Source: a virus. From it: 35,058 nucleotides of DNA. The DNA is taken from positions 1 through 35,058 of IMG/VR virus record IMGVR_UViG_3300030061_000720. One strand, given 5' to 3'. The first letter of the stretch is position 1; each line of letters starts with the position of its first letter. The notes below the pieces were generated by a model. That model had not been told where the DNA came from. It made no database searches and saw only the letters and a program-made list of their open reading frames with translations. A program made the position numbers and the translations under genes. This document shows, one piece after another, positions 6,953 through 35,058 of the stretch.

Positions 6953-6977
6953 ATTAAACCCTTTAATAACCCTTTCT

Positions 6978-7049
6978 ATAGGGTATTCCATACTCTTAAA
7001 GATAAAGATAAAGATAAGGCTAAAGATAAATACTAGGTTAAAGATAAAG
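6978..7049. repeat. Palindrome plus AAAGATAA repeat element, copy A
   Basis: ATAGGGTAT (6978-6986) leads into a small palindrome GTAT-TCC-ATAC (6983-6993). Four bases later come AAAGATAA copies at about 6998, 7004, 7010, 7022 and 7040. The 210-base gap between the phosphoesterase gene and 7164 is otherwise occupied only by a promoter and leader. A matching element lies at 17401-17459. The complement of the repeat, TTATCTTTA, resembles the first half of a DnaA box (TTATC). It could be an origin, an activator site or a partition-like site. Confidence 0.6.
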
Positions 7050-7085
7050 TATTTACATATTATTTATAAAAAACATTGTAAATAT

Positions 7086-7116
7086 TTTGGTAGTTTAAAA
7101 AATTGTTGTATCTTTG
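7086..7116 (+). promoter_or_regulatory. Early promoter P1
   Basis: TTTG (7086-7089), 19 bases, TATCTTTG (7109-7116): an exact fit to the Bacteroidota primary-sigma consensus. The -33 region reads AAATATTTTGGTAG and is shared with the two other early promoters. Transcription would begin near 7123 and drive the genes from 7164 on. Confidence 0.82.
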
Positions 7117-7163: not shown

Positions 7164-7379
7164 ATGAATTATGATGATTGGAAATTAAGCAACCCTGTAG
7201 ATGATGGGTTTGGATATAATATGGTAAGCAACTGTTGTGGAGTTTCAGTATGTGAGGAAACAGACATATGCTCTGATTGCAAAGAGCATTGCGACCCTAT
7301 AGAAGATTATGAATACGAAGAAATACAAAGAGAAAGCTATTTAGAAATGATGGCTGATGCTCGTAGAGATGAATACTAA
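7164..7379 (+). CDS. Small Cys-rich early protein
   Basis: A 71-residue acidic protein, the first gene of the first early operon. An N-terminal W-K-L-S-N-P segment is followed by C-C (24-25), C30, and C-x2-C-x3-C (C-S-D-C-K-E-H-C), a likely zinc-binding site. The C-terminus is rich in Glu, Tyr and Arg. As the first product made after infection it could act on host transcription or other host processes, but there is no direct evidence. The leader (CTAACTATTAACTAAAACAC) matches the leader before the peptidase gene at 9827. Confidence 0.65.
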   Translation: MNYDDWKLSNPVDDGFGYNMVSNCCGVSVCEETDICSDCKEHCDPIEDYEYEEIQRESYLEMMADARRDEY

Positions 7380-7401
7380 TTATTAAATAAACTATTTTAA
7401 A

Positions 7402-7692
7402 ATGACAAAAACACAAACGAGTGATATTCTACAACACTTAAAAGATGGTAGAAGGCTAACACAAAAAGAAGCTATAAACGAATATGGTGCATACAGATTA
7501 TCAAGCATCATTCATTCCTTAAGAAAGAAAGGTTACAGGATAGAGTCTAAACAATTAGATGTACCAACTAGGTATAAAAAAACAGATGGGACTACTAGAA
7601 ATGCTAACATTGTTGAATACAAGATGATTAAGGATGATAAAAAAAGCTTTGATTCTAGGCTTAAGAATTTTATGGAATCAATATTACAATAA
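7402..7692 (+). CDS. Winged-helix/HTH protein
   Basis: A 96-residue protein with an N-terminal helix-turn-helix: I-L-Q-H-L-K-D-G-R-R-L-T-Q-K-E-A then G-A-Y-R-L-S-S-I-I-H-S-L-R-K-K-G-Y-R-I. This matches the HTH_39-type domain common in phage early regions. The second half is basic and ends in an amphipathic helix. It probably binds DNA as a regulator of early transcription or replication. Its location 22 bases after the first early gene makes it part of the P1 operon. Confidence 0.72.
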   Translation: MTKTQTSDILQHLKDGRRLTQKEAINEYGAYRLSSIIHSLRKKGYRIESKQLDVPTRYKKTDGTTRNANIVEYKMIKDDKKSFDSRLKNFMESILQ

Positions 7693-7718
7693 CTAATTAT
7701 TAATTAAATTTTTAAAAA

Positions 7719-8144
7719 ATGAAAAAAATGGAAAACACTATTGAAGTAAAAGAAACAAAAGAAGAAACCCTAAAAAGACTATTCCTAGAGAATGGATTAG
7801 TTAAAGAAGATGTTTATAAAGATAAAAGAGGATTTGTAATTATAACAAGAACGGGCATAGATAAGATTGTATCTAAGCAAAACATTACAGTAGCTTATGA
7901 GCCTGTTGTAATGGAGAAAGATTGGGTAGTTATGAGAGCAACTGCTAGTATGAAGGTAGGACACAAAGGAAAAGATGTCAGAAATATGATGAGTTTTGGA
8001 GAAGCATCAGACTCTAATTTAATGGGGGGTGGTAAAAAGTTTCCTGTTGCTATGGCAGAAAAGAGAGCTATGTCAAGAGTTGTTCTTAAGGTAGCAGGAT
8101 TCTATGAGCAAGGAGTATTTGGTCAAGATGAAATTGTAGACTAA
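7719..8144 (+). CDS. Early protein with GEAS / MAEKRA-x-SR motif, possible recombination protein
   Basis: A 141-residue protein of a type found in phage replication regions. Visible blocks are I-T-R-T-G-I-D-K-I (about 47-55), a beta-rich middle, G-E-A-S (about 94-97), and P-V-A-M-A-E-K-R-A-M-S-R-V-V-L-K-V near residue 110. The last block recalls the C-terminal core of single-strand annealing proteins, but the match is only by general layout, and the family remains uncertain. It is next to DnaA-like and SSB-like genes, so a DNA replication or recombination job is likely. The stop overlaps the next start by one base (TAATG). Confidence 0.6.
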   Translation: MKKMENTIEVKETKEETLKRLFLENGLVKEDVYKDKRGFVIITRTGIDKIVSKQNITVAYEPVVMEKDWVVMRATASMKVGHKGKDVRNMMSFGEASDSNLMGGGKKFPVAMAEKRAMSRVVLKVAGFYEQGVFGQDEIVD

Positions 8145-8404
8145 TGGATTGGATGGATGAGGTTCTTGATGGTAAACCATTAGAAGCAGAGTTATGGAAA
8201 CTTGGCTACATTGAGAACCTCTTACACCGAACATCTATATCAGTATCAGAACAGCAAAGAATTATGAGTTCTTTAAATGAGCTTACAGATATAGAGGCTG
8301 ATAAGATACTTAAAAAAATAAAAGAAAATGAAATACATTTAGACCCTAAGCATCAATACGAAGCAATGAGGAAGAATGGAATGTTTAACCCTAAAGATTA
8401 TTAA
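8144..8404 (+). CDS. Hypothetical early protein
   Basis: An 86-residue protein translationally coupled to the upstream gene (TAATG). It is mainly helical, with E-A-D-K-I-L-K-K-I-K-E-N-E in the middle and a conserved-looking C-terminus (D-P-K-H-Q-Y-E-A-M-R-K-N-G-M-F). No domain is recognised. The operon position suggests a role alongside the recombination-like protein or the DNA-binding proteins. Confidence 0.55.
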   Translation: MDWMDEVLDGKPLEAELWKLGYIENLLHRTSISVSEQQRIMSSLNELTDIEADKILKKIKENEIHLDPKHQYEAMRKNGMFNPKDY

Positions 8405-8405
8405 A

Positions 8406-8717
8406 ATGAAAAATGATTATGAAAAAGTAAGAGCCTCAAGAAATGAACTTGAAGCAATCTTGAGAATTAGAGGAATATCTAAACAAAGATTTGGAAGAAT
8501 ATTAAATATTAAAGGCTCAACTATTGAGAAGTATTTAGACAATCCTTATCACTTAAGGTATTATCAAATGCAAAGACTTGCACAATTTCTAAATATAGAT
8601 GTAAAAGATGTTGTAGATATTATAGAGGTTGATTTAAAAGATGAAATAATTGTAGTAGAAGGAGAAGATAATTTTCAAGTAGTTGAATCATTAGTAAAGC
8701 AACAGGATAATGAGTAG
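8406..8717 (+). CDS. XRE/Cro-type helix-turn-helix regulator
   Basis: A 103-residue protein with a Cro/C1-type HTH at about residues 16-65: I-S-K-Q-R-F-G-R-I-L-N, then T-I-E-K-Y-L-D-N, and L-A-Q-F-L-N-I-D-V-K-D-V-V-D-I-I. An acidic C-terminus follows. It probably binds an operator. The palindrome at 9671-9689 is one candidate site, by inference only. The ATG at 8406 follows the upstream stop by one base. The longer frame from 8376 would overlap the upstream gene by about 29 bases and adds no domain sequence. Confidence 0.75.
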   Translation: MKNDYEKVRASRNELEAILRIRGISKQRFGRILNIKGSTIEKYLDNPYHLRYYQMQRLAQFLNIDVKDVVDIIEVDLKDEIIVVEGEDNFQVVESLVKQQDNE

Positions 8718-9171
8718 ATATAAATTAGAATTTACTAAAGAAAGAGATGATAAAATTAAATCAGAAATATGCAGAAGGTATAATTTAGCTTGGTCTGTTA
8801 TAGAAGGAAAAAGCAGAATAAGAAAAGTTATAGATGCAAGAAGGCTTTATTGTGGAATACTAAGAAATATTTTTAGGCTTACATTTCAGGAGATAGGAGA
8901 TATTCTTAATAAAAATCACGCAACAATATTGCACAGTATTACTCAGCACGATACCTTTGTAAGAATATTAAAATCTTATAAAAAAAACTATGAGGAAATA
9001 GAAAGCACTTTAATGATAGATGATAATTATTATATACACGAAGTTATAGAAGTAGAAAGAAAAATGAATGAACTATCAGAAAGGTTAAACGATTTAATAG
9101 AAAAGAAAAACGAATACAAATTAAAAATTAAAAAACAAAAAAATGGCAGACAAGAATTATGTAGCAAGTAG
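8710..9171 (+). CDS. DnaA domain IV-like DNA-binding protein
   Basis: A 153-residue protein whose residues 35-80 resemble the C-terminal DNA-binding domain of the initiator DnaA: V-I-D-A-R-R-L-Y-C-G-I-L-R (40-52), L-T-F-Q-E-I-G-D-I-L (57-66) and N-H-A-T-I-L-H-S-I (69-77), the last equivalent to the D-H-T-T-V-x-H signature. The AAA+ domain of DnaA is absent. A C-terminal coiled coil (about 112-145) could allow dimers. It may recognise phage repeats such as those at 6978-7049 and 17401-17459, acting as an origin-binding protein or as a competitor of host DnaA. It overlaps the XRE gene by 8 bases. Confidence 0.75.
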   Translation: MSRYKLEFTKERDDKIKSEICRRYNLAWSVIEGKSRIRKVIDARRLYCGILRNIFRLTFQEIGDILNKNHATILHSITQHDTFVRILKSYKKNYEEIESTLMIDDNYYIHEVIEVERKMNELSERLNDLIEKKNEYKLKIKKQKNGRQELCSK

Positions 9172-9394
9172 TATCAAAAAGGTAACTACGCAGTATGGAG
9201 AATTATTTAATGCAAGTTTTAAAGTAGATGATTTGCAAAAAATATCTAAAAGAGGTTGGGTAAATATTACAATAGCAGAAAGGAGAGAGCCTTCTGAAAA
9301 AGGAGCAACTCACTATGCTTATGAGAATACTTACGAGCCACCAAAAGAAGTAACAGCAGACAAGGCAAAAGAAGAAGATGATTTGCCGTTTTAA
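9143..9394 (+). CDS. Small SSB-like protein with acidic DDLPF tip
   Basis: An 83-residue protein that overlaps the previous gene by 29 bases. The body is predicted beta-rich (Y-G-E-L-F-N-A-S-F-K-V-D-D-L, then G-W-V-N-I-T-I-A-E-R-R-E and T-H-Y-A-Y-E-N-T-Y). It ends E-E-D-D-L-P-F, nearly the D-D-D-I-P-F tip of bacterial single-stranded DNA-binding proteins that recruits replication and repair enzymes. It is shorter than ordinary SSB, so it may be a minimal phage SSB or an SSB-tip mimic. The function rests on the tip and on the replication neighbourhood. Confidence 0.62.
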   Translation: MADKNYVASSIKKVTTQYGELFNASFKVDDLQKISKRGWVNITIAERREPSEKGATHYAYENTYEPPKEVTADKAKEEDDLPF

Positions 9395-9400
9395 ATAGCA

Positions 9401-9482
9401 TAGGTTGGGGGGTTAGTAATTTAATTAATAACTATCAGCAGTTATACTTTGTGAACGATTACAATTCCCCCCTTCCTTTTTT
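9401..9482 (+). terminator. Branched hairpin, probable terminator of the P1 operon
   Basis: GGGGGG (9407-9412) pairs with CCCCCC (9467-9472). Inside, GTAAT (9416-9420) pairs with ATTAC (9458-9462), and ATAACT (9428-9433) pairs with AGTTAT (9440-9445). Six T residues follow at 9477-9482. This is larger and more structured than a simple terminator. It could be a terminator, an attenuator or a small structured RNA. Confidence 0.6.
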
Positions 9483-9501
9483 ATTAACTTAAATTAAATT
9501 T

Positions 9502-9681
9502 ATGGACACTTATATTCCCTTAAACAGCATCAACTCAGACCTTGACAGGAAAACCTTAAGAGATAGGCTTGATAAGGCAAAAACAGAAAACACTAGACTT
9601 TCACAAAACAATCTTGATTTAAAGCTACAAGTTATAGAATTAAGAAAAAAACTAAATAATATTAAAACAACTACCAAATAA
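9502..9681 (+). CDS. Small coiled-coil protein
   Basis: A 59-residue protein read directly from the sequence. It has strong heptad character from about residue 16 (L-R-D-R-L-D-K-A, then L-K-L-Q-V-I-E-L-R-K-K-L) and many Lys/Asn. It lies between the P1 terminator and promoter P2, so it depends on read-through or an unseen promoter. The stop codon lies inside the 19-bp palindrome at 9671-9689. The function is unknown. Confidence 0.55.
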   Translation: MDTYIPLNSINSDLDRKTLRDRLDKAKTENTRLSQNNLDLKLQVIELRKKLNNIKTTTK

Positions 9682-9689
9682 TTTGGTAG
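9671..9689. promoter_or_regulatory. Perfect 19-bp palindrome over the -33 element (candidate operator)
   Basis: CTACCAAAT-A-ATTTGGTAG has nine-base arms that match perfectly. It covers the -33 element of promoter P2, so a bound dimeric protein would block or tune that promoter. One arm (TTTGGTAG or TTTGGAAG) recurs at the other two early promoters without its mate. Confidence 0.6.
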
Positions 9690-9713
9690 ATTCAAATATT
9701 ATTCGTATCTTTG
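9682..9713 (+). promoter_or_regulatory. Early promoter P2
   Basis: TTTG (9682-9685), 20 bases, TATCTTTG (9706-9713). It drives the operon beginning with the peptidase gene at 9827. The expected start near 9720 leaves a leader of about 105 bases, which contains the structured element at 9724-9790. Confidence 0.82.
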
Positions 9714-9723
9714 TACAGAATTT

Positions 9724-9790
9724 AAGGCAGGGAGTGAGCAAACATTGCACAGCCCTAACAGGTTCAATCGTAAACTGAAGCTCCTTCCTT
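9724..9790 (+). ncRNA. Structured 5' leader of the peptidase operon
   Basis: Bases 9724-9734 pair with 9781-9790 (ten pairs with a one-base bulge and one wobble). Within this lie a hairpin TGaGCAA-aca-TTGCaCA (9735-9751) and a possible hairpin TTCA/TGAA (9763-9779), giving a three-way-junction shape. It could be a cis-regulatory RNA or a binding site for a protein. It matches no riboswitch class I know. Confidence 0.45.
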
Positions 9791-9826
9791 AATTCAACTA
9801 ACTATTAACCAAAACACAAAACGCTT

Positions 9827-10915
9827 ATGAACACACTATTATTAGGTAGGAAAAAATTATTAATGGATATACTATCCGTTCAGACCACAAGTGGTAATGA
9901 ATTTGATATGATAGCTTATATCCACAAATTCTGCAGAGAGAATGTCCCTCAAGCAGAGGTTGTTATTAAAGATAGCAACATATATGTAACTAAAGGAACT
10001 GCAGATGTATATCCTTGTATGGTTGCACATACAGACACAGTTCACGATATACATAAATACTATAAAGTTTTTGATGATGATAATTGCTTATTTGCATTTA
10101 ACTCAGAATTAGGCAAGCAAGTAGGGATAGGTGGAGATGACAAGGTAGGTATATGGCTAGCATTAGAGATGCTTATCAGCAAAGACAATATTAAATGTGC
10201 GTTCTTTCATTCAGAAGAAGTGGGATGTGTAGGAAGTAGAGCTGCAGATATGGATTGGTTTAAAGATGTAGGTTATTGCCTACAAGGCGACAGGAGAGGC
10301 TCTAAGGACTTTGTAAACAATATATCAGGCAAACTATTCAGCAAAGCATTTAGCAAGAGCATAGCCCCTATATTAAAGAAGTATGGTTATGCAGAAACAT
10401 CAGGTGCAATTACAGATGTAGGTCAATTAGCAGAGAATGGTATTGGTGTTTGTGTAGCAAATATGAGTTGTGGTTATTACGCGCCTCATTCAGATGAGGA
10501 AATTGTAGAGTTCTATGATGCAAATAACTGCTTAAATATGGTTGATAAGATAATCAATGAGTTGGGCTGTAATAAGTATGAGTATCAACAGCAAAAGACA
10601 AGTTGGAGTGATTATGATTGGGGGGACTTTAGTGGAGCAGAAAGAAGCTATTGGTATTCTGATTATGGAAGCGACACAGAGGTTATTTGTGATGATGAGG
10701 GTAACGAAGCCTGTTATTATTGTGGCTGTAGCAATCTGTCTGATAGCGAGTTTAAGGGCTATAAGTTTTGCCCTGATTGTAACAGCGATATATTATTAAT
10801 AGATGAATCTTATGATGATGCTGAATATGAAGATATATCAGACAGTTATGATGGCTCAATGAAGCATAAGTCAATAGTAAACAAGTATTTAACTAACTAC
10901 GCAAAAAATAAATAG
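9827..10915 (+). CDS. M20/M28-type zinc aminopeptidase with zinc-ribbon tail
   Basis: A 362-residue protein. Residues 1-245 have the co-catalytic dizinc peptidase layout: H68-x-D70 (V-A-H-T-D), G-G-D104-D-K-V-G, E130-E131 (H-S-E-E-V-G), D155 (Q-G-D-R-R-G) and H221 (A-P-H-S-D-E-E). All metal ligands and the general-base Glu appear present, so it should be active. The fold is closest to peptidase T or aminopeptidase-like M20/M28 enzymes, but it lacks a clear large lid domain. Residues 296-318 form a zinc ribbon (C-Y-Y-C-G-C ... F-C-P-D-C), followed by an acidic region. It is the first gene of the P2 operon. The target is unknown: host or phage peptides, or a modified substrate. Confidence 0.75.
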   Translation: MNTLLLGRKKLLMDILSVQTTSGNEFDMIAYIHKFCRENVPQAEVVIKDSNIYVTKGTADVYPCMVAHTDTVHDIHKYYKVFDDDNCLFAFNSELGKQVGIGGDDKVGIWLALEMLISKDNIKCAFFHSEEVGCVGSRAADMDWFKDVGYCLQGDRRGSKDFVNNISGKLFSKAFSKSIAPILKKYGYAETSGAITDVGQLAENGIGVCVANMSCGYYAPHSDEEIVEFYDANNCLNMVDKIINELGCNKYEYQQQKTSWSDYDWGDFSGAERSYWYSDYGSDTEVICDDEGNEACYYCGCSNLSDSEFKGYKFCPDCNSDILLIDESYDDAEYEDISDSYDGSMKHKSIVNKYLTNYAKNK

Positions 10916-10917
10916 AT

Positions 10918-11109
10918 ATGGATAAAATAGATTTTATGAAGATGTTTCTACAAATGGGTTCAATGACTAATCAAACCGAGCAAGAGGCTCTAGCTTTTCA
11001 AGAGAGGATTGTATTCGCTACTGAAGGAGTAATAAAGCCTGAGGATTGGGATAGCTTACCCTTTGCAGAAAGAAAAGAAAGAATGAATCAACTACTAAAA
11101 CAGATATAA
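10918..11109 (+). CDS. Hypothetical early protein
   Basis: A 63-residue protein rich in Met, Gln and Glu, mostly helical (M-K-M-F-L-Q-M-G near the start, R-K-E-R-M-N-Q-L-L-K-Q near the end). It starts two bases after the peptidase stop and stops two bases before the replication protein gene, so it belongs to the same operon. No motif is recognised. Confidence 0.5.
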   Translation: MDKIDFMKMFLQMGSMTNQTEQEALAFQERIVFATEGVIKPEDWDSLPFAERKERMNQLLKQI

Positions 11110-11111
11110 TT

Positions 11112-11735
11112 ATGGCAAAGAGATTTACAGATACAGATAAATGGAAAAAAGGGTTTATAAGAAACCTTCCTGCAAAGTTTAAGTTATTATGGTTATACAT
11201 ATTAGATGATTGTAATCACGCAGGAATATGGGACACAGACTTTGAGGTTGCTTCAATCAGAATTGGAAGTAAGATAAGTGAGAAAGAAGCAGCTAAAGTT
11301 TTTGCAGAACAAATAAAGATTTTTGATAAAGGTAATAAATGGTTTATACCAAAGTTCATTGACTTTCAGTATGGAACTCTTAATGAGAACTCAAGGCCTC
11401 ATTTGGCTGTAATAAAATTACTAGACAAATATGATGTATATAACATTGAAGGGATTAGTCCTGTAGATGTTGCAGGGTTTGAGAATGAAATAAAGAAGCC
11501 TATCATTAAAAGATTTGCAGAGCCTACTGTAGATGAGGTAGATGCTTATTGTACCGAAAGAAATAATAAGGTAGATAGCGTTAAGTTTCACAACTTTTAC
11601 TCTAGCAATGGGTGGAAGGTAGGAAAGAATAAGATGAAAGACTGGAGAGCTTGTGTTAGAACTTGGGAGGCAAATACACCTAAAGATAAGACAGGAAGGA
11701 AAGAATTATCAAATAAAGATTATAATAAATTTTAA
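11112..11735 (+). CDS. Replisome organiser-like protein
   Basis: A 207-residue protein. The N-terminus (K-W-K-K-G-F, then L-K-L-L-W-L-Y-I-L-D-D-C-N-H-A-G-I-W) is a winged-helix-like DNA-binding segment of the kind seen in Bacteroidota phage replication proteins. The C-terminus (F-Y-S-S-N-G-W-K-V-G-K-N-K-M-K-D-W) resembles the DnaD/DnaT-type motif that contacts helicase loaders. The DnaC-like loader lies two genes downstream. The likely role is to bind the phage origin and bring in the loader and helicase. Length is usual for the group. Confidence 0.7.
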   Translation: MAKRFTDTDKWKKGFIRNLPAKFKLLWLYILDDCNHAGIWDTDFEVASIRIGSKISEKEAAKVFAEQIKIFDKGNKWFIPKFIDFQYGTLNENSRPHLAVIKLLDKYDVYNIEGISPVDVAGFENEIKKPIIKRFAEPTVDEVDAYCTERNNKVDSVKFHNFYSSNGWKVGKNKMKDWRACVRTWEANTPKDKTGRKELSNKDYNKF

Positions 11736-11739
11736 ATAT

Positions 11740-12237
11740 ATGGCTTCAACAAATTTAAGTATGCTAAATAAAACATCAAACAATTCTTTGTCTGATGAGT
11801 GCTACACTCCTAATGAGGGTATATTGCCCTTGCTTAGTGAGATGAGTAAAGACAAGGTTTATTATGATTGTACTAGTGGTATTAGTTCTAATATAGTGGA
11901 TTGCTTTACTTCTAATGGTTATAAATGTATATCAAGCAAAGGAAGGGATTTTTTAAAAGATGAACTTCCTGATGGAATTGATGTTATAATTACTAACCCT
12001 CCTTATTCTAAAAAAGATAAGTTCATTGAAAGGTGCTATGAGTTAAAAAAACCTTTTGCCTTATTACTTCCTGTAAGTTCTTTGCAGGGAATAAAAAGAG
12101 GAGAAATGTTTTCCAAAAATGGAATTGAAATACTAGCATTAAAAAAGAGAATAGATTTCACAGGAAAAGGTAGTCCTCACTTTGGAGTTGCTTGGTTTTG
12201 CAATGGACTACTAAAACAAAAATTAATTTTTAAATAG
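11740..12237 (+). CDS. DNA adenine methyltransferase-like protein
   Basis: A 165-residue protein with the amino-methyltransferase catalytic motif T-N-P-P-Y (85-89), preceded by D-V-I-I, and a degenerate SAM-binding motif (Y-Y-D-C-T-S-G, 41-47). It is about half the length of a typical adenine methyltransferase, and I see no target-recognition domain, so it may act with low specificity or be inactive. It could protect phage DNA from restriction. The ATG at 11740 is chosen because the upstream extension to 11653 overlaps the previous gene and carries no domain sequence. Confidence 0.68.
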   Translation: MASTNLSMLNKTSNNSLSDECYTPNEGILPLLSEMSKDKVYYDCTSGISSNIVDCFTSNGYKCISSKGRDFLKDELPDGIDVIITNPPYSKKDKFIERCYELKKPFALLLPVSSLQGIKRGEMFSKNGIEILALKKRIDFTGKGSPHFGVAWFCNGLLKQKLIFK

Positions 12238-12241
12238 AAAT

Positions 12242-12820
12242 ATGAGAACACTAGAAGAAACATTAAAGAGTGCAACGCACATAAAGATTAGAGGCTATAA
12301 GAGATATTCTTTTGGAACTTATGATGAGTGTATGAAACTGTTTAAGGAAGCCTTTATGCTTGTAGACAGGACTATTACAGAGTATAAGCATCTTCCTGAG
12401 TATGATGAGGTTGTAAGTTGGTTAGCAGACACTAAAGGTAAGGGGTTATTTTTAATAGGGAATTGTGGTAGAGGTAAGTCAGTTATACTTACAGGGGTTC
12501 TGCCATTAATCTTTAACGCTAAGAAGGGTAAGATACTAAAGCCAATAGCATCTAGGAAGCTTCATCAGGTTACTGAATATAAAAGCCCATTCATTGTTAT
12601 AGATGATATAGGTACTGAGGAGATAGTAAACGATTATGGAACTAAGATAGATGCAGTAGAGAACGCTATATTTGAGGCAGAAGATGATTTAAAAATGCTT
12701 TTATTAACATCAAACCTTGACGCTAAATCCATTAAAGAAAGATATGGAGAAAGGATATATGACAGGATTAAAAGGCTGTGTAAGGTTGTGTTTATGAGAG
12801 GAGAAAGCTTAAGAAAATGA
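12242..12820 (+). CDS. DnaC-like AAA+ helicase loader
   Basis: A 192-residue ATPase. The Walker A motif is G-N-C-G-R-G-K-S (73-80), Walker B is F-I-V-I-D-D-I-G (117-124), sensor 1 is L-L-L-T-S-N (153-158), and the Arg-rich Y-G-E-R-I-Y-D-R-I-K-R-L segment (168-179) carries the likely Arg finger and sensor 2 region. This is the DnaC/IstB arrangement: it loads a replicative helicase onto DNA. The phage has no recognisable helicase, so it probably captures the host DnaB. Its stop codon overlaps the start of the next gene (ATGA). Confidence 0.85.
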   Translation: MRTLEETLKSATHIKIRGYKRYSFGTYDECMKLFKEAFMLVDRTITEYKHLPEYDEVVSWLADTKGKGLFLIGNCGRGKSVILTGVLPLIFNAKKGKILKPIASRKLHQVTEYKSPFIVIDDIGTEEIVNDYGTKIDAVENAIFEAEDDLKMLLLTSNLDAKSIKERYGERIYDRIKRLCKVVFMRGESLRK

Positions 12821-12906
12821 AGATATTAACAACGATTTGGGGAATAATTATACTACTATGTGTATTAGAAGCCTATTTTTGTACTAAATTTGCAGATGAT
12901 GAATAA
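12817..12906 (+). CDS. 29-residue membrane peptide
   Basis: A very short gene coupled by ATGA to the helicase loader. Residues 6-21 (I-W-G-I-I-I-L-L-C-V-L-E-A-Y-F) form one hydrophobic segment, followed by C-T-K-F-A-D-D-E. It overlaps the next gene by 11 bases. Phage early membrane peptides of this kind often have unknown host-directed roles. It may also be only a coupling peptide. Confidence 0.5.
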   Translation: MKILTTIWGIIILLCVLEAYFCTKFADDE

Positions 12907-13144
12907 AGCTAAAATAAAATTATTAGCCTTAAGCACTAAAGAAAAGATTAAACTTTTAGACAGGTTAGTAAGTAAAGATTTTCACTCTTATATTATTATA
13001 GCTAATTTATTTGCATCTGAAGATGAGGAAAAAGGAGGGTTGTCAATTAATAAATTAGAAATAGAGTTAAGCAAAAGCATTAAAAGGAAGTATTATTTTA
13101 ATAAAAAAATAAAAAATGAAAACAGTAATATTATTTATAATTAG
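12896..13144 (+). CDS. Hypothetical early protein
   Basis: An 82-residue, mostly helical, Lys/Leu/Ile-rich protein (L-A-L-S-T-K-E-K-I-K-L-L-D-R-L near the start). ATGs at 12896 and 12899 are both possible, and a TTG at 12890 is less likely. The C-terminus is basic and Asn-rich. It overlaps genes at both ends, showing very tight packing of this segment. No family is recognised. Confidence 0.55.
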   Translation: MMNKAKIKLLALSTKEKIKLLDRLVSKDFHSYIIIANLFASEDEEKGGLSINKLEIELSKSIKRKYYFNKKIKNENSNIIYN

Positions 13145-13304
13145 TATATTCACTCTTTATTATATTATTTTAAAAATTGCTTACAGCTTTATATATAGAG
13201 ATAAAAACAAGATTGAGGAGAATATTAAAAAACAAGAAAAACAAGAAAAACATATAACAAGAACAGGGGGATTAGAAAACGATAGATTAAATGAAAGACC
13301 ATAG
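13116..13304 (+). CDS. Small membrane-anchored protein
   Basis: A 62-residue protein with an N-terminal hydrophobic segment (residues 4-24, V-I-L-F-I-I-S-I-F-T-L-Y-Y-I-I-L) and a charged tail full of Lys, Glu and Gln (E-K-Q-E-K-H). It looks like a single-pass anchor with a cytoplasmic coiled tail. It overlaps the upstream gene by 29 bases and the downstream gene by 14. The function is unknown. Confidence 0.55.
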   Translation: MKTVILFIISIFTLYYIILKIAYSFIYRDKNKIEENIKKQEKQEKHITRTGGLENDRLNERP

Positions 13305-13509
13305 AATACCACACTACTACATTGGAAACAATGGATATGAAGCAAGAAAAGTTGTTTCAGGATTTGATTTGTCCTATAATATAGGGACTGCCACTACATA
13401 TTTGCTCCGTAGTGAACGCAAACACGAATCTCCTGTTGAGTGTATTAAAAAAGCTATAGCCCACTTAGAGTTTGAACTAGAAAAGATAGAGGAAGAAAAA
13501 AAGAAATAA
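13291..13509 (+). CDS. DUF3310-type protein
   Basis: A 72-residue protein that matches the DUF3310 pattern found in many phages: an H-Y-Y-x5-Y-E-A start, G-F-D-L-S-Y-N-I-G-T-A-T-T-Y-L-L-R in the middle, and a final helix A-H-L-E-F-E-L-E-K-I. In other phages the domain occurs alone or attached to nucleotide kinase-like proteins, and the function is not established. A link to nucleotide metabolism is possible. It overlaps the membrane protein gene by 14 bases and is followed by another gene after one base. Confidence 0.75.
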   Translation: MKDHRIPHYYIGNNGYEARKVVSGFDLSYNIGTATTYLLRSERKHESPVECIKKAIAHLEFELEKIEEEKKK

Positions 13510-13510
13510 T

Positions 13511-13747
13511 ATGGGATATTTAACACATATAAAAAGAAGTAGTCATTGTGATACTTGCAGATGGATTGTCAAGTATGATAAAGAAGAATTAGTAAGAGAG
13601 GTTAAGTTGGTGTATAATCCTGATGATTATAGTAAGGAAAACGCAAAGAGGTATGGTTATAAAGCTAGAAAGCTTCACACAAGAGAGCAGTTAATAGCTG
13701 CATTAGAATGGGACAAAGTTAAAAGGAATGGGCAGCCCTATTTATAG
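13511..13747 (+). CDS. Hypothetical early protein
   Basis: A 78-residue basic protein. A C-D-T-C pair near residue 13 and the alternating charged segment Y-G-Y-K-A-R-K-L-H-T-R-E-Q are the only marked features. The two Cys are too few for a full zinc site, unless the protein pairs with another. It overlaps the next gene by 20 bases. The function is unknown. Confidence 0.5.
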   Translation: MGYLTHIKRSSHCDTCRWIVKYDKEELVREVKLVYNPDDYSKENAKRYGYKARKLHTREQLIAALEWDKVKRNGQPYL

Positions 13748-13967
13748 GGTTATTGTAGGGTATGGCTATAGAGCTAAAGGCTCGGCAAGACCTTATAGGT
13801 ATGATAAAATAGACACATTTGTATTAACAAATGATGTTGAGATGATAAAAAAAGATAAAAGGCTGATGGAGAAGATATTAAGAAAGTCTAAATCAAGAAA
13901 GAAAGAGTTAGAAATAACATTTAAAAACATCTATATTGAGGGTCAATATGGGGAAACTACTTACTAA
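13728..13967 (+). CDS. Hypothetical basic early protein
   Basis: A 79-residue basic protein (Y-R-V-I-V-G-Y-G-Y-R-A-K-G near the start and a K-S-K-S-R-K-K-E stretch near residue 55) with a predicted alpha/beta mix. It overlaps the preceding gene by 20 bases in a different frame and ends 14 bases before the next. No domain is recognised. Confidence 0.5.
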   Translation: MGSPIYRVIVGYGYRAKGSARPYRYDKIDTFVLTNDVEMIKKDKRLMEKILRKSKSRKKELEITFKNIYIEGQYGETTY

Positions 13968-13981
13968 TTAAAAAAAAGATT

Positions 13982-14212
13982 ATGGAAACTATTTTATTTG
14001 TTTTTGTTGTTTTGTATGCAATTTATTTAAACATAAGAATCAAATCACTTCAAGATGAAACGATTGATTTGGAGTTAGGGTTAATAGAGTTAGATAGAAA
14101 GATGCAAGAAACAGCTAAAGAATTAAGTGAAGATATTAAGGCTTGTTTAAAAACTAAGATAATTGCGAAACCAAGAAGAAGAAGTACAAAGAAGCGTAGT
14201 AAAGTATCTTAA
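13982..14212 (+). CDS. Membrane-anchored coiled-coil protein
   Basis: A 76-residue protein. Residues 4-18 (I-L-F-V-F-V-V-L-Y-A-I-Y-L) form a membrane segment, followed by a helix with heptad spacing (about 22-55) and a very basic end (R-R-R-S-T-K-K-R-S-K). The last 50 bases are shared with the VRR-NUC gene in another frame. It might tether DNA or a nuclease to the membrane. This is speculative. Confidence 0.5.
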   Translation: METILFVFVVLYAIYLNIRIKSLQDETIDLELGLIELDRKMQETAKELSEDIKACLKTKIIAKPRRRSTKKRSKVS

Positions 14213-14558
14213 GATGCGTTACCCTAAGGCTAAGTATTGTGCCTCTTTAGGAGGTATAAGAACATCCTATAAGCAAGCTGTTAAGGCTAAGGCTACAGGG
14301 TATGTAAAAGGATTTCCTGACCTTCAAATCTGTGTCCCTATGGAGAGGGGGGAGCATATAGAGGGGGGTGCCACTCAGGGGGGGGGTGTCTATCACGGAT
14401 TGTTCTTAGAAATAAAGAAGGATAAAAAATCTTATCCAACCAAAGAACAGAAAGAATGGATAGCATACCTCAACGAGCAAGGGTATTGTGCTAGGGTTAC
14501 CAAAGGGTTAGATGAGAGTATAGAAGTAATTGATAACTATTTTAATAAAAAGATATGA
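14163..14558 (+). CDS. VRR-NUC domain nuclease (TTG start)
   Basis: A 131-residue nuclease of the PD-(D/E)xK superfamily. The N-terminal Glu cluster with Q (N-Q-E-E-E-V-Q, 3-9), F-P-D53-L, and E83-I-K85 then Q96-x3-W form the expected active site. The VRR-NUC family cuts branched DNA such as Holliday junctions. The first in-frame ATG (14214) would remove the N-terminal Glu, so translation very probably begins at TTG 14163, which is unusual here. Residues 60-79 form a Gly/Glu-rich insertion encoded by long G runs. Confidence 0.75.
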   Translation: MRNQEEEVQRSVVKYLKMRYPKAKYCASLGGIRTSYKQAVKAKATGYVKGFPDLQICVPMERGEHIEGGATQGGGVYHGLFLEIKKDKKSYPTKEQKEWIAYLNEQGYCARVTKGLDESIEVIDNYFNKKI

Positions 14559-14755
14559 GTATAAATATATACGATAGAAAAGATATGCGAGGTGGAGGTT
14601 ATGCAAAGCGTAAGTTCACTTATGAAGAAGCAGAGAAGGTTAGAGCTGATTACAAGACAGGTAAGTTTACTCAGCATCAGTTGGCATCAATGTATAAGGT
14701 AAGCCAATCTATAATAAATAAGATACTAAGGTTTAAGACCTATGTAAAGGTATAA
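14555..14755 (+). CDS. Small helix-turn-helix protein
   Basis: A 66-residue protein with a resolvase-type HTH in the second half: Y-E-E-A-E-K-V-R-A-D-Y, then F-T-Q-H-Q-L-A-S-M-Y-K-V-S-Q-S-I-I-N-K-I-L. The N-terminus is short and basic with R-G-G-G. It overlaps the nuclease gene by 4 bases and is the last gene of the P2 operon, 28 bases before the terminator. It may act as a late regulator, or in DNA recognition together with the nuclease. It is also placed to help activate late promoters, though this is inference. Confidence 0.68.
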   Translation: MSINIYDRKDMRGGGYAKRKFTYEEAEKVRADYKTGKFTQHQLASMYKVSQSIINKILRFKTYVKV

Positions 14756-14783
14756 AAGAAAGTGTGTTTGTGTTTGTTGAAAG

Positions 14784-14816
14784 AAGTCAAGGAATTAATT
14801 TTTCTTGGCTTTTTTT
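14784..14816 (+). terminator. Intrinsic terminator of the P2 operon
   Basis: GTCAAGGAA (14786-14794) pairs with TTTCTTGGC (14801-14809) with two wobbles, extended by two A-T pairs, then seven T residues (14810-14816). A very T-rich tract continues to about 14870. Confidence 0.78.
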
Positions 14817-14875
14817 ATTTTAATTTTTATTTTTTTTATTTTTTTATTTTTCTTTTTCATTTTCTAATTTCTCCC

Positions 14876-14929
14876 TGAAACTGCTAGGCCTGTTGAAACT
14901 GCTGAGGCTGTTGAAACTGCTAGGCCTGT
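14876..14929. repeat. Three tandem 18-bp repeats
   Basis: Copies at 14876-14893, 14894-14911 and 14912-14929. Copies 1 and 3 are identical (TGAAACTGCTAGGCCTGT), and copy 2 has GAGGCTGT at its end. In one frame they read as a six-residue repeat (E-T-A-R-P-V / E-T-A-E-A-V) without a start codon. Sixteen bases also match the coding DNA at 32977-32992. The stretch from 14817 to 15073 otherwise has no gene: it holds a T-rich tract, these repeats and the iterons. Confidence 0.8.
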
Positions 14930-14990
14930 TGGTAAGGGGGTATAGGCAAAAAAAATGGAATTTTTTCCTCATACTTTTTTTCTTGATGTA

Positions 14991-15077
14991 TGCAAATTAT
15001 TTGTATAAAAGTTATTAACATTCTAATTGTTGATAAATATATTGCAAATTATTTAATATTTTGTTGTAAATTATTTG
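14991..15077. repeat. TGYAAATTATTT iterons upstream of P3
   Basis: Three near-identical 12-base sequences at 14991-15002, 15043-15054 and 15066-15077. The last one covers the -33 element of promoter P3. They could be binding sites of an activator or repressor, or part of an origin. Confidence 0.6.
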
Positions 15078-15104
15078 GAAGTATGGCTTTTCTTTTTATC
15101 TTTG
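15074..15104 (+). promoter_or_regulatory. Early-type promoter P3
   Basis: TTTG (15074-15077), 19 bases, TATCTTTG (15097-15104), with the extended AAATTATTTGGAAG motif of the other early promoters. It drives three unknown genes (15151-16768). A small hairpin (GCCcTA/TAGGC) lies in the leader. Confidence 0.82.
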
Positions 15105-15150
15105 CCAAAGTTATTAATCAATAAAGCCCTACAAAATAGGCATACTAAAA

Positions 15151-15387
15151 ATGAGATATTTTAAAATTACAAACAGAGAAACAAGAAACGCACAAACATT
15201 AACAGAATTAGAATTAACTACATTTTTTAAGAAAAATAGTGTTAGAGATTATGCAATTTCAAACACATTAAGCCCAAAAGATAAGCAAATAAATAATTTT
15301 ATAGATGCAGTTGCTATAAGTTGTTTTGGATTAGCCTTTATCATCTTAATTACTGAAATAGTGAGAGACAATTTCACAATTTTATAA
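15151..15387 (+). CDS. Small membrane protein
   Basis: A 78-residue protein, the first gene of the P3 unit. The N-terminal half is charged and polar (M-R-Y-F-K-I-T-N-R-E-T). A hydrophobic helix covers about residues 51-69 (A-V-A-I-S-C-F-G-L-A-F-I-I-L-I). This suggests a single-pass protein with a cytoplasmic domain. The function is unknown. Being in an accessory unit with its own early promoter and terminator, a host-interaction role (for example superinfection exclusion or anti-defence) is conceivable, but nothing in the sequence demonstrates it. Confidence 0.55.
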   Translation: MRYFKITNRETRNAQTLTELELTTFFKKNSVRDYAISNTLSPKDKQINNFIDAVAISCFGLAFIILITEIVRDNFTIL

Positions 15388-15411
15388 AATTATTAATTTA
15401 AACTATCTAAA

Positions 15412-15579
15412 ATGGAAAAAGAAACACTACAACAAGCCGATAAATATTTTGCACTTTATCAAATTAACACATTTATAAAAGATAATAAAATGTTTTTAAA
15501 TTTAGGAAATATTGAAATTGAAATTAGCAAAAATGAAATAAAAGCAAGAGCAAAACAATATATTAATTTAAAAAAATAA
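15412..15579 (+). CDS. Small hypothetical protein of the P3 unit
   Basis: A 55-residue protein read directly from the sequence, between the membrane protein and the large third gene. It is helical and Lys/Ile/Asn-rich (A-D-K-Y-F-A-L-Y-Q-I-N-T-F-I near the start, K-N-E-I-K-A-R-A-K-Q-Y-I-N-L at the end). No motif is recognised. Confidence 0.5.
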   Translation: MEKETLQQADKYFALYQINTFIKDNKMFLNLGNIEIEISKNEIKARAKQYINLKK

Positions 15580-15601
15580 AAATTCTAAACTACTAAAAAA
15601 A

Positions 15602-16768
15602 ATGGACAACAAAAACACTATACAAAAAGCAATTGATTATCTAGGAATCTATGCTACTAAAAGCGAAAAATTTGCAGACTTTAAATTTATAGGCAAATCA
15701 ATAGACAACCCCTTACAGGTTTCTTATATAAGTCAGAAAAAAATTGATAGTTTGCTAGAATATACAGAAACAAAAATTTTAGGAACAAAGGAACAAAGAC
15801 AAAAACATTTTACATCTACAACAATTTTTAAATTATTGCAAAATATGTTTATTAATGAAGCAGACAGAAGCACTACTATTGCATCAGATATTGATAGACA
15901 ACTTAGAAAAGACTTTTGTAAAGATGCTGATTTATTTACTGAAGATGATGTAAAGGGTTTTTATAGTCAAGAAAATACAAACTATATTTATAACGCTAAC
16001 GGCAGTTGTATGAATAAAAAACCTATTTCTTATTTTGAGATATACGACAATTTTATAAATACAAAGGCTCAAGTAGTAGGTTTAAAAGTTGGAAAATCAG
16101 TAGTTGCTAGAGCAATTTTATGGACAAAAACATTAATTCACAAAAAAGAAGTTGACCAATACGACAAAGACAATAATAAAACTACTTTTCAAGTTGAAAC
16201 ACACAGAGAAAAACAATATTTTTTAGATAGAATTTATATCTCTAAAGAATTCCAGAACAGCAATCAAGAAGAACTGCAAAACAAATTATACAATAAAATT
16301 AAAAGGGCGTTAAAATTAAGGCGTTTAGATTGTTATAGTTTAACACATATAAAACGAATACACACAACCGACAAACTTAATTATTTTAATTCTGCACGAT
16401 ATCCAAATTTTAGTATTCAAATAAAACAAGATACATTTAACGAATTAGAAAATTATCCATATATGGACACTTTCAGATGGGGAAAGGAAACAACAAACAA
16501 CATTTGTTTTGATAATGACGAAGATAATACAGATTATATTTTAGAAGATACTTCTGGAAATTATACAGAAGGTGGCAGTTGTTTTTGTGAGTGTTGCGAC
16601 ACTAATATACACGAAGATGATTCTATATATTCAGAGATTGAAGAAGAAACATTGTGCGAAGATTGTGCAGTATATATAGAAGAAAGGCAAGAGTACTGCC
16701 GAACAGATAACGCAACATACAATAACTATTCAGGCAATTATCATTATCAAAACGATTTAGACTATTAA
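15602..16768 (+). CDS. Conserved-type phage protein of unknown function with Cys-rich tail
   Basis: A 388-residue protein. The middle contains N-G-S-C-M near residue 138, Y-F-E-I-Y-D-N-F, and V-A-R-A-I-L-W-T followed by F-L-D-R-I-Y. This S-C-M / R-A-x-L-W / D-R-I-Y series recurs, in my memory, in unrelated phages as an uncharacterised protein. The C-terminus has a zinc-finger-like cluster (C-F-C-E-C-C ... L-C-E-D-C ... Y-C) and then Tyr/Asn/Asp-rich residues. The wording of codons is even more A-rich than in neighbouring operons, which may indicate separate acquisition. It is the last and main gene of the P3 unit. Confidence 0.55.
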   Translation: MDNKNTIQKAIDYLGIYATKSEKFADFKFIGKSIDNPLQVSYISQKKIDSLLEYTETKILGTKEQRQKHFTSTTIFKLLQNMFINEADRSTTIASDIDRQLRKDFCKDADLFTEDDVKGFYSQENTNYIYNANGSCMNKKPISYFEIYDNFINTKAQVVGLKVGKSVVARAILWTKTLIHKKEVDQYDKDNNKTTFQVETHREKQYFLDRIYISKEFQNSNQEELQNKLYNKIKRALKLRRLDCYSLTHIKRIHTTDKLNYFNSARYPNFSIQIKQDTFNELENYPYMDTFRWGKETTNNICFDNDEDNTDYILEDTSGNYTEGGSCFCECCDTNIHEDDSIYSEIEEETLCEDCAVYIEERQEYCRTDNATYNNYSGNYHYQNDLDY

Positions 16769-17051: not shown

Positions 17052-17400
17052 GCTAAATTTAGCGAAAATGGGTAAAAATTCTGCAAAATCCGTAATTTTG
17101 AAAAATGGGTATTCTTAACTATATCTACACCCACATTCTAATTTCAAATCCAATTTCATAATTAAAGTTTCCAAGTTATTTTAGGAGGTAGAAGTTGTAT
17201 AGTAAGTTTTCCAAATTTGAATTTAAACATAATGATTATTTTATTAAGAAGGTTATTAAATATGCTAGTTGCGATATGAGCAACAGTATATTCTATAGGA
17301 AGTAAAGGTATAGGAAAATAATTTAATTATTAAGCAACTTTTGGAAGTAAAAAAAATTATAAAAAAATTTTCAAAATGGAATTAAATCCAATTTCATAAT
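17052..17400. other. Noncoding region with direct repeats before the late region
   Basis: The 780-base gap 16769-17548 has no strong gene. Besides the terminator and leader copy, it holds a perfect palindrome GCTAAA-TTTAGC (17052-17063), AAAATGGGTA twice (near 17065 and 17102), and a 17-base direct repeat AAATCCAATTTCATAAT at 17146-17162 and 17384-17400. The second copy directly abuts the repeat element at 17401. The density of repeats suggests an origin, packaging or regulatory locus. Confidence 0.5.
17195..17305 (+). CDS. Possible 36-residue ORF with a Shine-Dalgarno site
   Basis: An open frame from TTG 17195 to TAA 17303-17305, preceded at five bases by AGGAGGT (17183-17189), the only perfect Shine-Dalgarno sequence I noticed. 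The product is basic and aromatic (Y-S-K-F-S-K-F-E-F-K-H-N-D-Y-F-I-K-K). Bacteroidota use such sites little, and the start is not ATG, so this could be chance or a gene remnant. Confidence 0.25.
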   Translation: MYSKFSKFEFKHNDYFIKKVIKYASCDMSNSIFYRK

Positions 17401-17459
17401 ATAGGGTATTTAAAGGGTATGCTATACCATTAAAGATAAGGAAAAGGATAAAGATAAAG
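17401..17459. repeat. Palindrome plus AAAGATAA repeat element, copy B
   Basis: ATAGGGTAT (17401-17409), a palindrome GGTAT-GCT-ATACC (17416-17428), then after three bases AAAGATAA (17432-17439), a variant AAAGGATAA and another AAAGATAAAG (17450-17459). The order and spacing match copy A at 6978-7049. It stands upstream of the first late gene. Confidence 0.6.
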
Positions 17460-17496
17460 TTATGAATAAAGACAGGTTAATAAAATTTCTTTTAAT

Positions 17497-17530
17497 TTCG
17501 TAGGAAATGATATATATTTTACTTTATTTG
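17497..17530 (+). promoter_or_regulatory. Candidate late promoter L1
   Basis: TTCG (17497-17500), 22 bases, TTTATTTG (17523-17530), 19 bases before the ATG at 17549. The same TTC[GC]-N22-T-rich-TTG arrangement appears at 20561-20594 and 33385-33418. The -7 box is off consensus, so the call depends on this comparison. Confidence 0.4.
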
Positions 17531-17548
17531 TAAAAAAAAGAAAAAGAT

Positions 17549-17947
17549 ATGGCAGGTTACCACCCACCAAAAATGATTACATCTAATGCAGCTCCTGCAA
17601 TTACTTCAGATTTAGCTTATGAAGGACACGGAAAGTGTGGGTGTCAGACTATAGTGTTGTGTGGAGATTTAGAAGATGCTAAAGTATGGTACAAAGCAGA
17701 ATCTACATACAACTCAGGAGTTACAGGTTGTGTGGACACTACAGGTGTTTATAAAATTGTTGCTTTAGAAAACACTAAATTCAGAGGATTAAGAGCGAAA
17801 AATATATCAACATATCAATTAGATGCATTTAAGTTTAGTGTAACAGGCTTTATACTTAAAATAAATAGTGAAATATTAGCTGACTTTGACTATATAGAAA
17901 TACTTAGTGGAACTTTAATGTGTTATAGGGACTGCGAACAATCATAA
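17549..17947 (+). CDS. Hypothetical protein, first late gene
   Basis: A 132-residue protein with a Pro/His start (M-A-G-Y-H-P-P-K-M) and several Cys (G-K-C-G-C-Q-T near 30, G-C-V-D-T, M-C-Y-R-D-C at the end). The second half is predicted beta-rich and shows the sort of composition seen in small virion proteins. It follows late promoter candidate L1 and precedes the terminase genes. The function is unknown. Confidence 0.55.
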   Translation: MAGYHPPKMITSNAAPAITSDLAYEGHGKCGCQTIVLCGDLEDAKVWYKAESTYNSGVTGCVDTTGVYKIVALENTKFRGLRAKNISTYQLDAFKFSVTGFILKINSEILADFDYIEILSGTLMCYRDCEQS

Positions 17948-34455: not shown

Positions 34456-35058
34456 ATGGCAAATGTAGCAGCAAATAGTATTGGAACTGCATATAACGGA
34501 ACCTATGCTAGTAAAATCTTATTAGAGCCTATGTTTACTTCAGATGATATTATGAGAAATTATACTATCTATCCTTCAGTAAAATATAAGCAAAACATTA
34601 CAATGGCACCTGCTTTAAGGGGTATCACAGCAGTACATGATGGATGTGGAGTAGAAAATACTTGCAACCCTGCAGGATTCAGCGTAACGCAAAAAGTATT
34701 ACACGCACACAATGTGTCTGTAAAGCAAACTCAATGTTGGGAAGAATTTCACGATGAAGTTATTGTAGAGTCTTACAGAAACGGAATCAATATGCCTGAC
34801 TTAACAGGAACACAATTAGCAGAAGTAATCATTAACAGAGTAAGAGCAGGTGTTGCTAGCGATATGGTTAGAAATATGTGGTTTGGAGAAGCTACTATTT
34901 CAGCATCTTCTCCTGATTGTTCTTATCAATCAATGGGTAATGGATTATTCCACCACCTATCAGCAGGAACTGCTTTCCAAGCAGGAACAAGTGCTAATAT
35001 GACTCCTGTAACAGGAGCTTTAACTTTAGCAGCAGCAACAGCTTCTTATGCAACAGTA
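34456..35058 (+). CDS. Major capsid protein, N-terminal part (continues at base 1)
   Basis: The start of the major capsid gene. It begins 21 bases after the protease stop with an A-rich leader, and the frame is open to the end of the window. From 34960 on it repeats bases 1-98, so it continues to 627 and gives 376 residues in all. The N-terminus (M-A-N-V-A-A-N-S-I-G-T-A-Y) and several segments such as V-S-V-K-Q-T-Q-C-W-E-E-F look capsid-like in position. The family assignment rests on gene order after the ClpP-like protease. As a highly expressed protein, it should be the main virion component. Confidence 0.85.
   Translation, partial: MANVAANSIGTAYNGTYASKILLEPMFTSDDIMRNYTIYPSVKYKQNITMAPALRGITAVHDGCGVENTCNPAGFSVTQKVLHAHNVSVKQTQCWEEFHDEVIVESYRNGINMPDLTGTQLAEVIINRVRAGVASDMVRNMWFGEATISASSPDCSYQSMGNGLFHHLSAGTAFQAGTSANMTPVTGALTLAAATASYATV
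34960..35057. repeat. Terminal direct repeat, right copy (circular closure)
   Basis: Identical to bases 1-98, within the major capsid gene. See the left copy. The base after it (35058, A versus C at 99) is the only difference seen, and it is a synonymous change in a valine codon. Confidence 0.95.

Follow-up and report, generated by a model that had tools for sequence, protein, structure and literature searches.

Two described phage replication origins offer the closest points of comparison for the locus reported here. Bacillus phage SPP1 has two origins, oriL and oriR, which lie about 13 kb apart and consist of direct repeats and an AT-rich unwinding element; they are similar in organisation, oriL lying within gene 38 and oriR outside it, and are bound by gp38, with gp39 as the helicase loader (PMC6316719). 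The phage lambda origin consists of 19-bp inverted repeats and about 40 bp of A+T-rich DNA inside gene O (PMC5043065). The window analysed here, IMG/VR virus record IMGVR_UViG_3300030061_000720 (positions 1-35,058, the whole stretch of 35,058 bases), carries two copies, A and B, of an element that combines phased half-sites, a palindrome and tandem hexamers. These copies are very probably the two replication origins of the phage, bound by the replisome-organiser-like product of 11112-11735 and not by its DnaA-like protein.

The record has an identical 98-base terminal repeat (positions 1-98 = 34960-35057), a probable assembly overlap, so that it very likely represents a complete, circularly assembled phage genome. 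The + strand carries all of the main genes, with the late (structural) genes running from 17549 through the genome end and on to 6952, and the early genes occupying 7164-16768. A motif scan placed Bacteroidetes-type promoters (TTTG ... TATCTTTG) at about 7085, 9682 and 15074, and the cultured nearest relatives of the terminase include Croceibacter, Chryseobacterium and Cellulophaga phages (37-44% identity); the host is presumably a marine member of the Bacteroidetes.

Both copies are built on the half-site AAGGGTW, repeated at centre-to-centre distances of 11 or 12 bp (Table 1). In copy A the triplet centres fall at 6960, 6971, 6982 and 6994 (spacing 11/11/12 bp) and in copy B at 17405, 17416 and 17428 (11/12 bp); the last two half-sites of each copy form a 19-bp palindrome (AAGGGTA-N5-TACCCTT type), which is followed in both by tandem hexamers, AAAGAT and variants. 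Copy A contains ATAGGGTAT-TCC-ATAC, then AAAGATAAAGATAAAGATAAGGCTAAAGATAAA, and copy B, in order, ATAGGGTAT, AAGGGTATGCTATACC and AAAGATAAGGAAAAGGATAAAGATAAA. The original prediction of a duplicated palindrome and repeat element at 6978-7049 and ~17.4 kb proved real: 41 of 52 bases are equal in an ungapped comparison (copy A 6977-7028 against copy B from 17411), compared with a best value of 33 of 52 in 200 simulated first-order Markov genomes, and blastn with copy A as the query returned copy B (E = 2.9e-6). Its start for copy A, however, was set too late, as two further ACCCTTT half-sites (centres 6960 and 6971) belong to the element. The predicted placement, ahead of the first operon of early genes and ahead of the first of the late genes, was also correct: copy A lies between the exonuclease gene (the last late gene, stop 6952) and the early promoter, and copy B follows the early operon and precedes the first late gene, which starts at 17549. 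Genome-wide, AAAGATAA showed a strand bias, with 15 sites on the + strand, seven of them within A and B, and one on the - strand. Beside the half-sites lies an A+T-rich tract, the copy A hexamers having 22.6% G+C and the DNA beyond them 13.6-18.6% (13.6% for 7050-7108) compared with 32.4% for the genome, and these hexamers are a candidate unwinding element. GC skew, which had been suggested as a check, does not change sign at either 7.0 or 17.4 kb.

Table 1. Coordinates of the two element copies, the adjoining promoters and the proteins considered as their binders or partners.
Feature	Position	Strand	Basis or content
Copy A, whole element	about 6957-7049	+	Sequence
Copy A half-site array	6957..6997	+	ACCCTTT, ACCCTTT, TAGGGTAT, ATACTCTT; arrows <- <- -> <-
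Copy A hexamer repeats, AAAGAT-like, period 6	6998..7049	+	Tandem repeat detection, composition
Early promoter, Bacteroidetes-type, TTTTGG ... TATCTTTG, downstream of copy A	7085..7116	+	Motif scan
Cro/C1-type HTH protein, rival binder	8376..8717	+	Differs between element classes in this clade
DnaA domain IV-like protein, not the cognate binder	8710..9171	+	Pfam Bac_DnaA_C, E = 1.2e-12
Replisome-organiser-like protein, 207 aa, proposed binder of A and B	11112..11735	+	Class tracking, C-part match, in-gene homologues
DnaC-like helicase loader, proposed organiser partner	12242..12820	+	PHROG match
Copy B, whole element	17402-17459	+	Sequence
Copy B half-site array	17402..17431	+	TAGGGTAT, AAGGGTAT, ATACCATT; arrows -> -> <-; alignment of 22 sequences
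Copy B hexamer repeats	17432..17459	+	Sequence, tandem repeat detection, alignment
Late-promoter-like block, conserved, ending TTTATTTGT	17474..17531	+	Alignment; between copy B and the 17549 gene

Relatives were gathered by scanning IMG/VR with the terminase, exonuclease, DnaA-like protein, HTH protein and organiser as queries, which gave more than 200 related loci from partial collections; many of these overlap as parts of one and the same contig, and kinship inflates the counts. Two classes of element were found among them: class 1 has AAGGGTA half-sites and AAAGAT hexamers, and class 2 (L094, L104, L107, L109, L141-L144, L167 and L168) has AAGGGTT half-sites and TAGTAA hexamers. The expectation that relatives would carry the same element at the same junction was upheld, with conservation strong enough that the prediction does not fail on this ground. 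Copy A is present in nearly all relatives, directly after the exonuclease gene and ahead of the early promoter, which is itself kept in nearly all of them. Among 77 distinct A junctions, 67 had an element recognised by pattern (60 in the window orientation and seven inverted) and five had one recognised by eye (L085, L095, L179, L219 and L238), while none was found at the remaining five (L048, L050, L053, L061 and L150). Between palindrome and early promoter lie 78 to 144 bp, depending on the relative, and inversion of the entire element is seen at seven distinct class-1 A junctions and in the class-2 locus L168; together, the inversions and the variable distance argue for a duplex cis site that is independent of promoter geometry. 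In 121 distinct elements of relatives, an extra triplet lies exactly 11 bp upstream of the GGG of the palindrome in 75 and exactly 22 bp upstream of it in 58, and triplets displaced by one base number just 0-3, a near-exact phasing which would place the half-sites on about the same face of the helix.

Copy B was aligned in the window and 21 relatives, in each directly upstream of the late promoter-like block. It is missing, with the late block kept, in L021/L022, L127 and L040, and copy A is present in L127 and in the L040 genome (its A in L237). The A and B copies of L225 share a lineage-specific hexamer start. Both copies are of class 2 in the two genomes with both ends readable (L094+L195 and L167+L196), and copy B of L043/L197 is also of class 2; the joint switching of A and B suggests that both follow one shared factor.

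Two other roles for these sequences were considered and rejected. Copy A as an RNA hairpin leader or terminator was set aside because the element is inverted in several relatives and the palindrome has no T-run behind it, and an Rfam search of the element gave no match. A small peptide from ATG 17462 at copy B would be short, is variable among relatives and is lost in L063.

Several further features were observed in the vicinity. Just upstream of copy B, a conserved non-coding stretch (17147-17401), flanked by direct repeats ATCCAATTTCATAAT, contains a strongly conserved hairpin (GTTGC-GATATGA-GCAAC within a longer stem), with both-side changes in 4 of 14 predicted pairs; it is kept even in distant relatives without copy B, had no match in Rfam and is a candidate structured RNA. 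In the late promoter-like block, 17495-17531 (TTTCGTAGG ... TTTATTTGT) has a -7-like box with an upstream box about 27 bp off, compared with a box spacing of 23 bp in the early promoter, and the block may need an activator. A 20-bp perfect palindrome, AAAGGGTTAGCTAACCCTTT, lies upstream of a peptidase-like gene, in the second early promoter region, in L018 (at 1521) and L021 (at 1537). In many relatives (L003-L071) the contig stops close to copy B, 1-2.5 kb ahead of the terminase.

The protein that follows the two classes was sought gene by gene, using genes represented by six or more class-2 sequences, and a clean gap between classes appeared in only two of those compared, the HTH protein (at most 68% identity between classes, at least 77% within class 2) and the organiser (at most 64% and at least 81%, respectively). 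The class difference in the organiser sits in its N-domain, the C-domain being shuffled between classes, and in L048, L050, L053 and L061 an unrelated N-domain has been swapped in, the C-domain kept and the element lost. Element and organiser N-domain agreed in 52 of the 52 distinct loci in which the A junction and organiser were both readable (45 type-1 N-domains with AAAGAT, three type-2 with TAGTAA and four unrelated N-domains with no element), a contrast that rests on seven phylogenetically non-independent loci, the three type-2 and the four swapped. Sites specific to an initiator should evolve with it, and the full concordance, together with an independent replicate in the in-gene elements described below, conforms to this pattern. 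On these comparisons, the element changes in step with the N-terminal domain of the 11112-11735 product. Alignment of the window gene and its homologues also showed the organiser gene to be a mosaic, in which N- and C-domains recombine.

The organiser N-domain covers about residues 1-107 and has a predicted H-H-H-b-b order of secondary structure. The structure model of the protein was poor (mean pLDDT 55), so that the description of the N-domain as winged-helix-like depends on predicted secondary structure. The C-domain resembles phage replication-initiation proteins and matches a Porphyromonas phage replication initiation protein; searches of Pfam and NCBIfam gave no family naming the organiser. 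A helicase loader is encoded near the initiator in this genome and was detected in only part of the relatives and distant loci.

When bacterial genomes were scanned with an alignment of the organiser, three distant homologues were recovered, to which later searches added more. In each of the first three, the part of the organiser gene that directly follows the N-domain holds G-tract half-sites, either palindromic or repeated, and then TAAAGA/TAAGGA hexamers. An element of this kind also lies in the organiser gene of the cultured Pseudanabaena phage Pan5, in which no window-like half-sites, strict hexamer pattern or repeats upstream of that gene were found. In total, phased half-sites and hexamers occur in the gene, some 36-120 bp past the N-domain, in about 27 distant N-domain homologues (a count set by a hand-chosen threshold, with L251 and L252 borderline), which come from bacterial genomes (as probable prophages), from uncultured phages and from phage Pan5; a typical element is AAGCCCCTTACAAGCCCCTTACAAGGAGCTAAAGATAAAGATATGG. 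The in-gene 11-bp repeats occur in both orientations and encode different peptides (KPLTSPLQGA and KGLARGLQGA); as this period is not a multiple of the codon, and as the peptides differ with orientation, selection on the protein does not explain the repeat, which was most likely selected as DNA. Three homologues with type-2-like N-domains (L255, L259 and L261) have in-gene hexamers of the TAGTAA/TGGTAA class (L255: ACCCTTAGCCAACCCTTACTTAAGAGTTATAGTAATAGTAATAG), giving 3 of 4 compared with 0 of 24 among the other homologues with hexamers (Fisher p = 0.001, in a post hoc, hand-classified comparison).

These distant loci also bear on the proposal that A and B are operators of the HTH protein 8376-8717, through which early and late promoters would be switched. 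A promoter does lie downstream of each copy, a dimeric HTH protein would suit the 19-bp palindrome, and the protein separates the element classes through changes that fall in the HTH itself, so that it is a possible second binder in this clade. An operator should nevertheless be accompanied by its regulator wherever it occurs, and no HTH homologue was detected in the 36 or so distant N-domain loci, about 27 of which have the element, which lowers the standing of this proposal; a location inside a gene would also be odd for an operator, the orientation of the element and its distance from the promoter both vary, a diverged HTH homologue persists in genomes without the element, and the hexamers are left unexplained. 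We therefore regard the operator proposal as unlikely, and the 'master regulatory site' of the original prediction likewise fits worse than a pair of origins, given the variable promoter distance and the inversion of the element in several relatives.

Much less probable again is the notion that the in-gene hexamers merely encode a charged linker (KDKDK), that their likeness to A and B is coincidental, and that A and B have some other role, such as packaging or recombination. The in-gene hexamers do encode Lys-Asp linkers, but the half-sites next to them have an 11-bp period that runs out of step with the codons, and they occur in either orientation, encoding different peptides; moreover, A and B have the same hexamers although they are non-coding in relatives, and class-2 hexamers recur in the gene alongside class-2-like N-domains.

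That A and B are DnaA-box-like sites for the DnaA domain IV-like protein at 8710, the partner named in the original prediction, is scarcely credible, for although this protein has a genuine Bac_DnaA_C domain and the reverse complement of the hexamer begins TTATC, the match of TTATCTTTA to the DnaA box TTATCCACA is largely confined to the first five bases, a motif scan for DnaA boxes (TTATNCACA) gave no TTWTNCACA match at A or B, the gene is absent and the element normal in L120, L123, L124, L126-L128, L147-L149 and others, the protein stays window-like (70-81% identity) in the class-2 loci L094, L167 and L168, it does not separate the classes (nearest neighbour pure in 3 of 7), and a protein of this type occurs in just two distant loci. 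Genomes with class-1 elements may have a window-type DnaA-like protein, one of a 30-43% type or, in its place, an unrelated small protein, and class-2 elements likewise occur alongside several DnaA-like types. The slot after the HTH gene may hold a window-type DnaA-IV, a diverged DnaA-IV or an unrelated small protein (MTEEG...). The 'replication origin pair' that the original prediction had offered thus stands as the best-supported reading, and its link to a DnaA box and the 8710 protein finds no support.

If A and B are the origins, the organiser N-domain would bind the 19-bp palindrome together with the half-sites in their helical phase, and the bound protein would bend the DNA and help to open the adjacent A+T-rich hexamer tract, after which the organiser C-domain and the DnaC-like loader would recruit the replicative helicase. 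The promoters adjoining each copy may aid activation, as transcription does at the lambda origin. Copy A would be the principal origin, because it is kept in every readable relative with this N-domain, and copy B an additional and dispensable one, with oriR of SPP1 as a parallel. We infer binding, melting and initiation, and the roles of copy B and of transcription, from the sequence, and the steps to helicase loading by analogy. Sites and an A+T-rich tract within the initiator gene are the design of the lambda origin and of SPP1 oriL, and on this basis A and B may be read as an origin that has moved out of the organiser gene and is now present twice; we infer the outward direction from unrooted comparisons.

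More tentatively, and as a joint reading that is possible but less secure than the paired origins themselves, these elements may represent a previously undescribed family of phage origins, in which 11-bp-phased half-sites and period-6 repeats are combined with a new initiator N-domain, which lie within the gene in phages and prophages of several phyla and have moved out and been duplicated in one marine clade, where they bracket the early genes, and whose period-6 repeats would be recognised by an initiator of non-AAA+ type as a specific signal for melting or as a single-strand signal, as suggested by the change of repeat class along with the N-domain. A literature search for this organiser and origin returned only SPP1, lambda and unrelated systems, which, with its partial coverage, is weak evidence of novelty. 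The origins of uncultured phages are hard to recognise, and here an initiator domain and its putative origin could be matched by co-variation in many genomes and at two locations, in the gene and outside it. This co-variation would give a sequence rule by which origins could be located in phages of marine Bacteroidetes and in prophages related to them. The existence of two element classes supplies ready pairs for studies of how an initiator selects its origin, and the two-copy layout adds to SPP1 another natural example in which the function of a second origin can be examined.

Compared with the DnaA boxes and DnaA-trios of bacterial oriC, the elements are alike in having double-stranded sites beside short repeats of period 3 or 6, and the class-2 repeat TAGTAATAG reads as DnaA-trio-like triplets. 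In contrast to oriC, A and B have no DnaA box, the class-1 AAAGAT hexamers fall outside the DnaA-trio motif, and the DnaA-like protein of the phage has no AAA+ domain and does not track the element. The likeness to the lambda origin lies in 19-bp inverted-repeat sites that adjoin 40-50 bp or so of A+T-rich DNA, with nearby transcription that is possibly activating (PMC5043065), and the distant homologues also carry the element inside the initiator gene. However, lambda has four full iterons in a single-copy origin, whereas here 11-bp-spaced half-sites include one full palindrome and are followed by tandem hexamers; no sequence relation is claimed. With SPP1, the window shares a layout of two similarly built origins, putative in the window, which are separated by about 10-13 kb of a circular genome (PMC6316719, PMC3485210), each comprising repeats and an A+T-rich tract, one near the early genes and the other at the late region, with a replisome organiser and a helicase loader encoded. 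Gene 38 contains oriL, whereas A and B both lie outside the organiser gene, and the half-site sequence, the 11-bp array with hexamers and the organiser N-domain have no known kinship with gp38 and its sites. Within the window's own clade, A and B are built alike and switch class together, and B is lost in some relatives.
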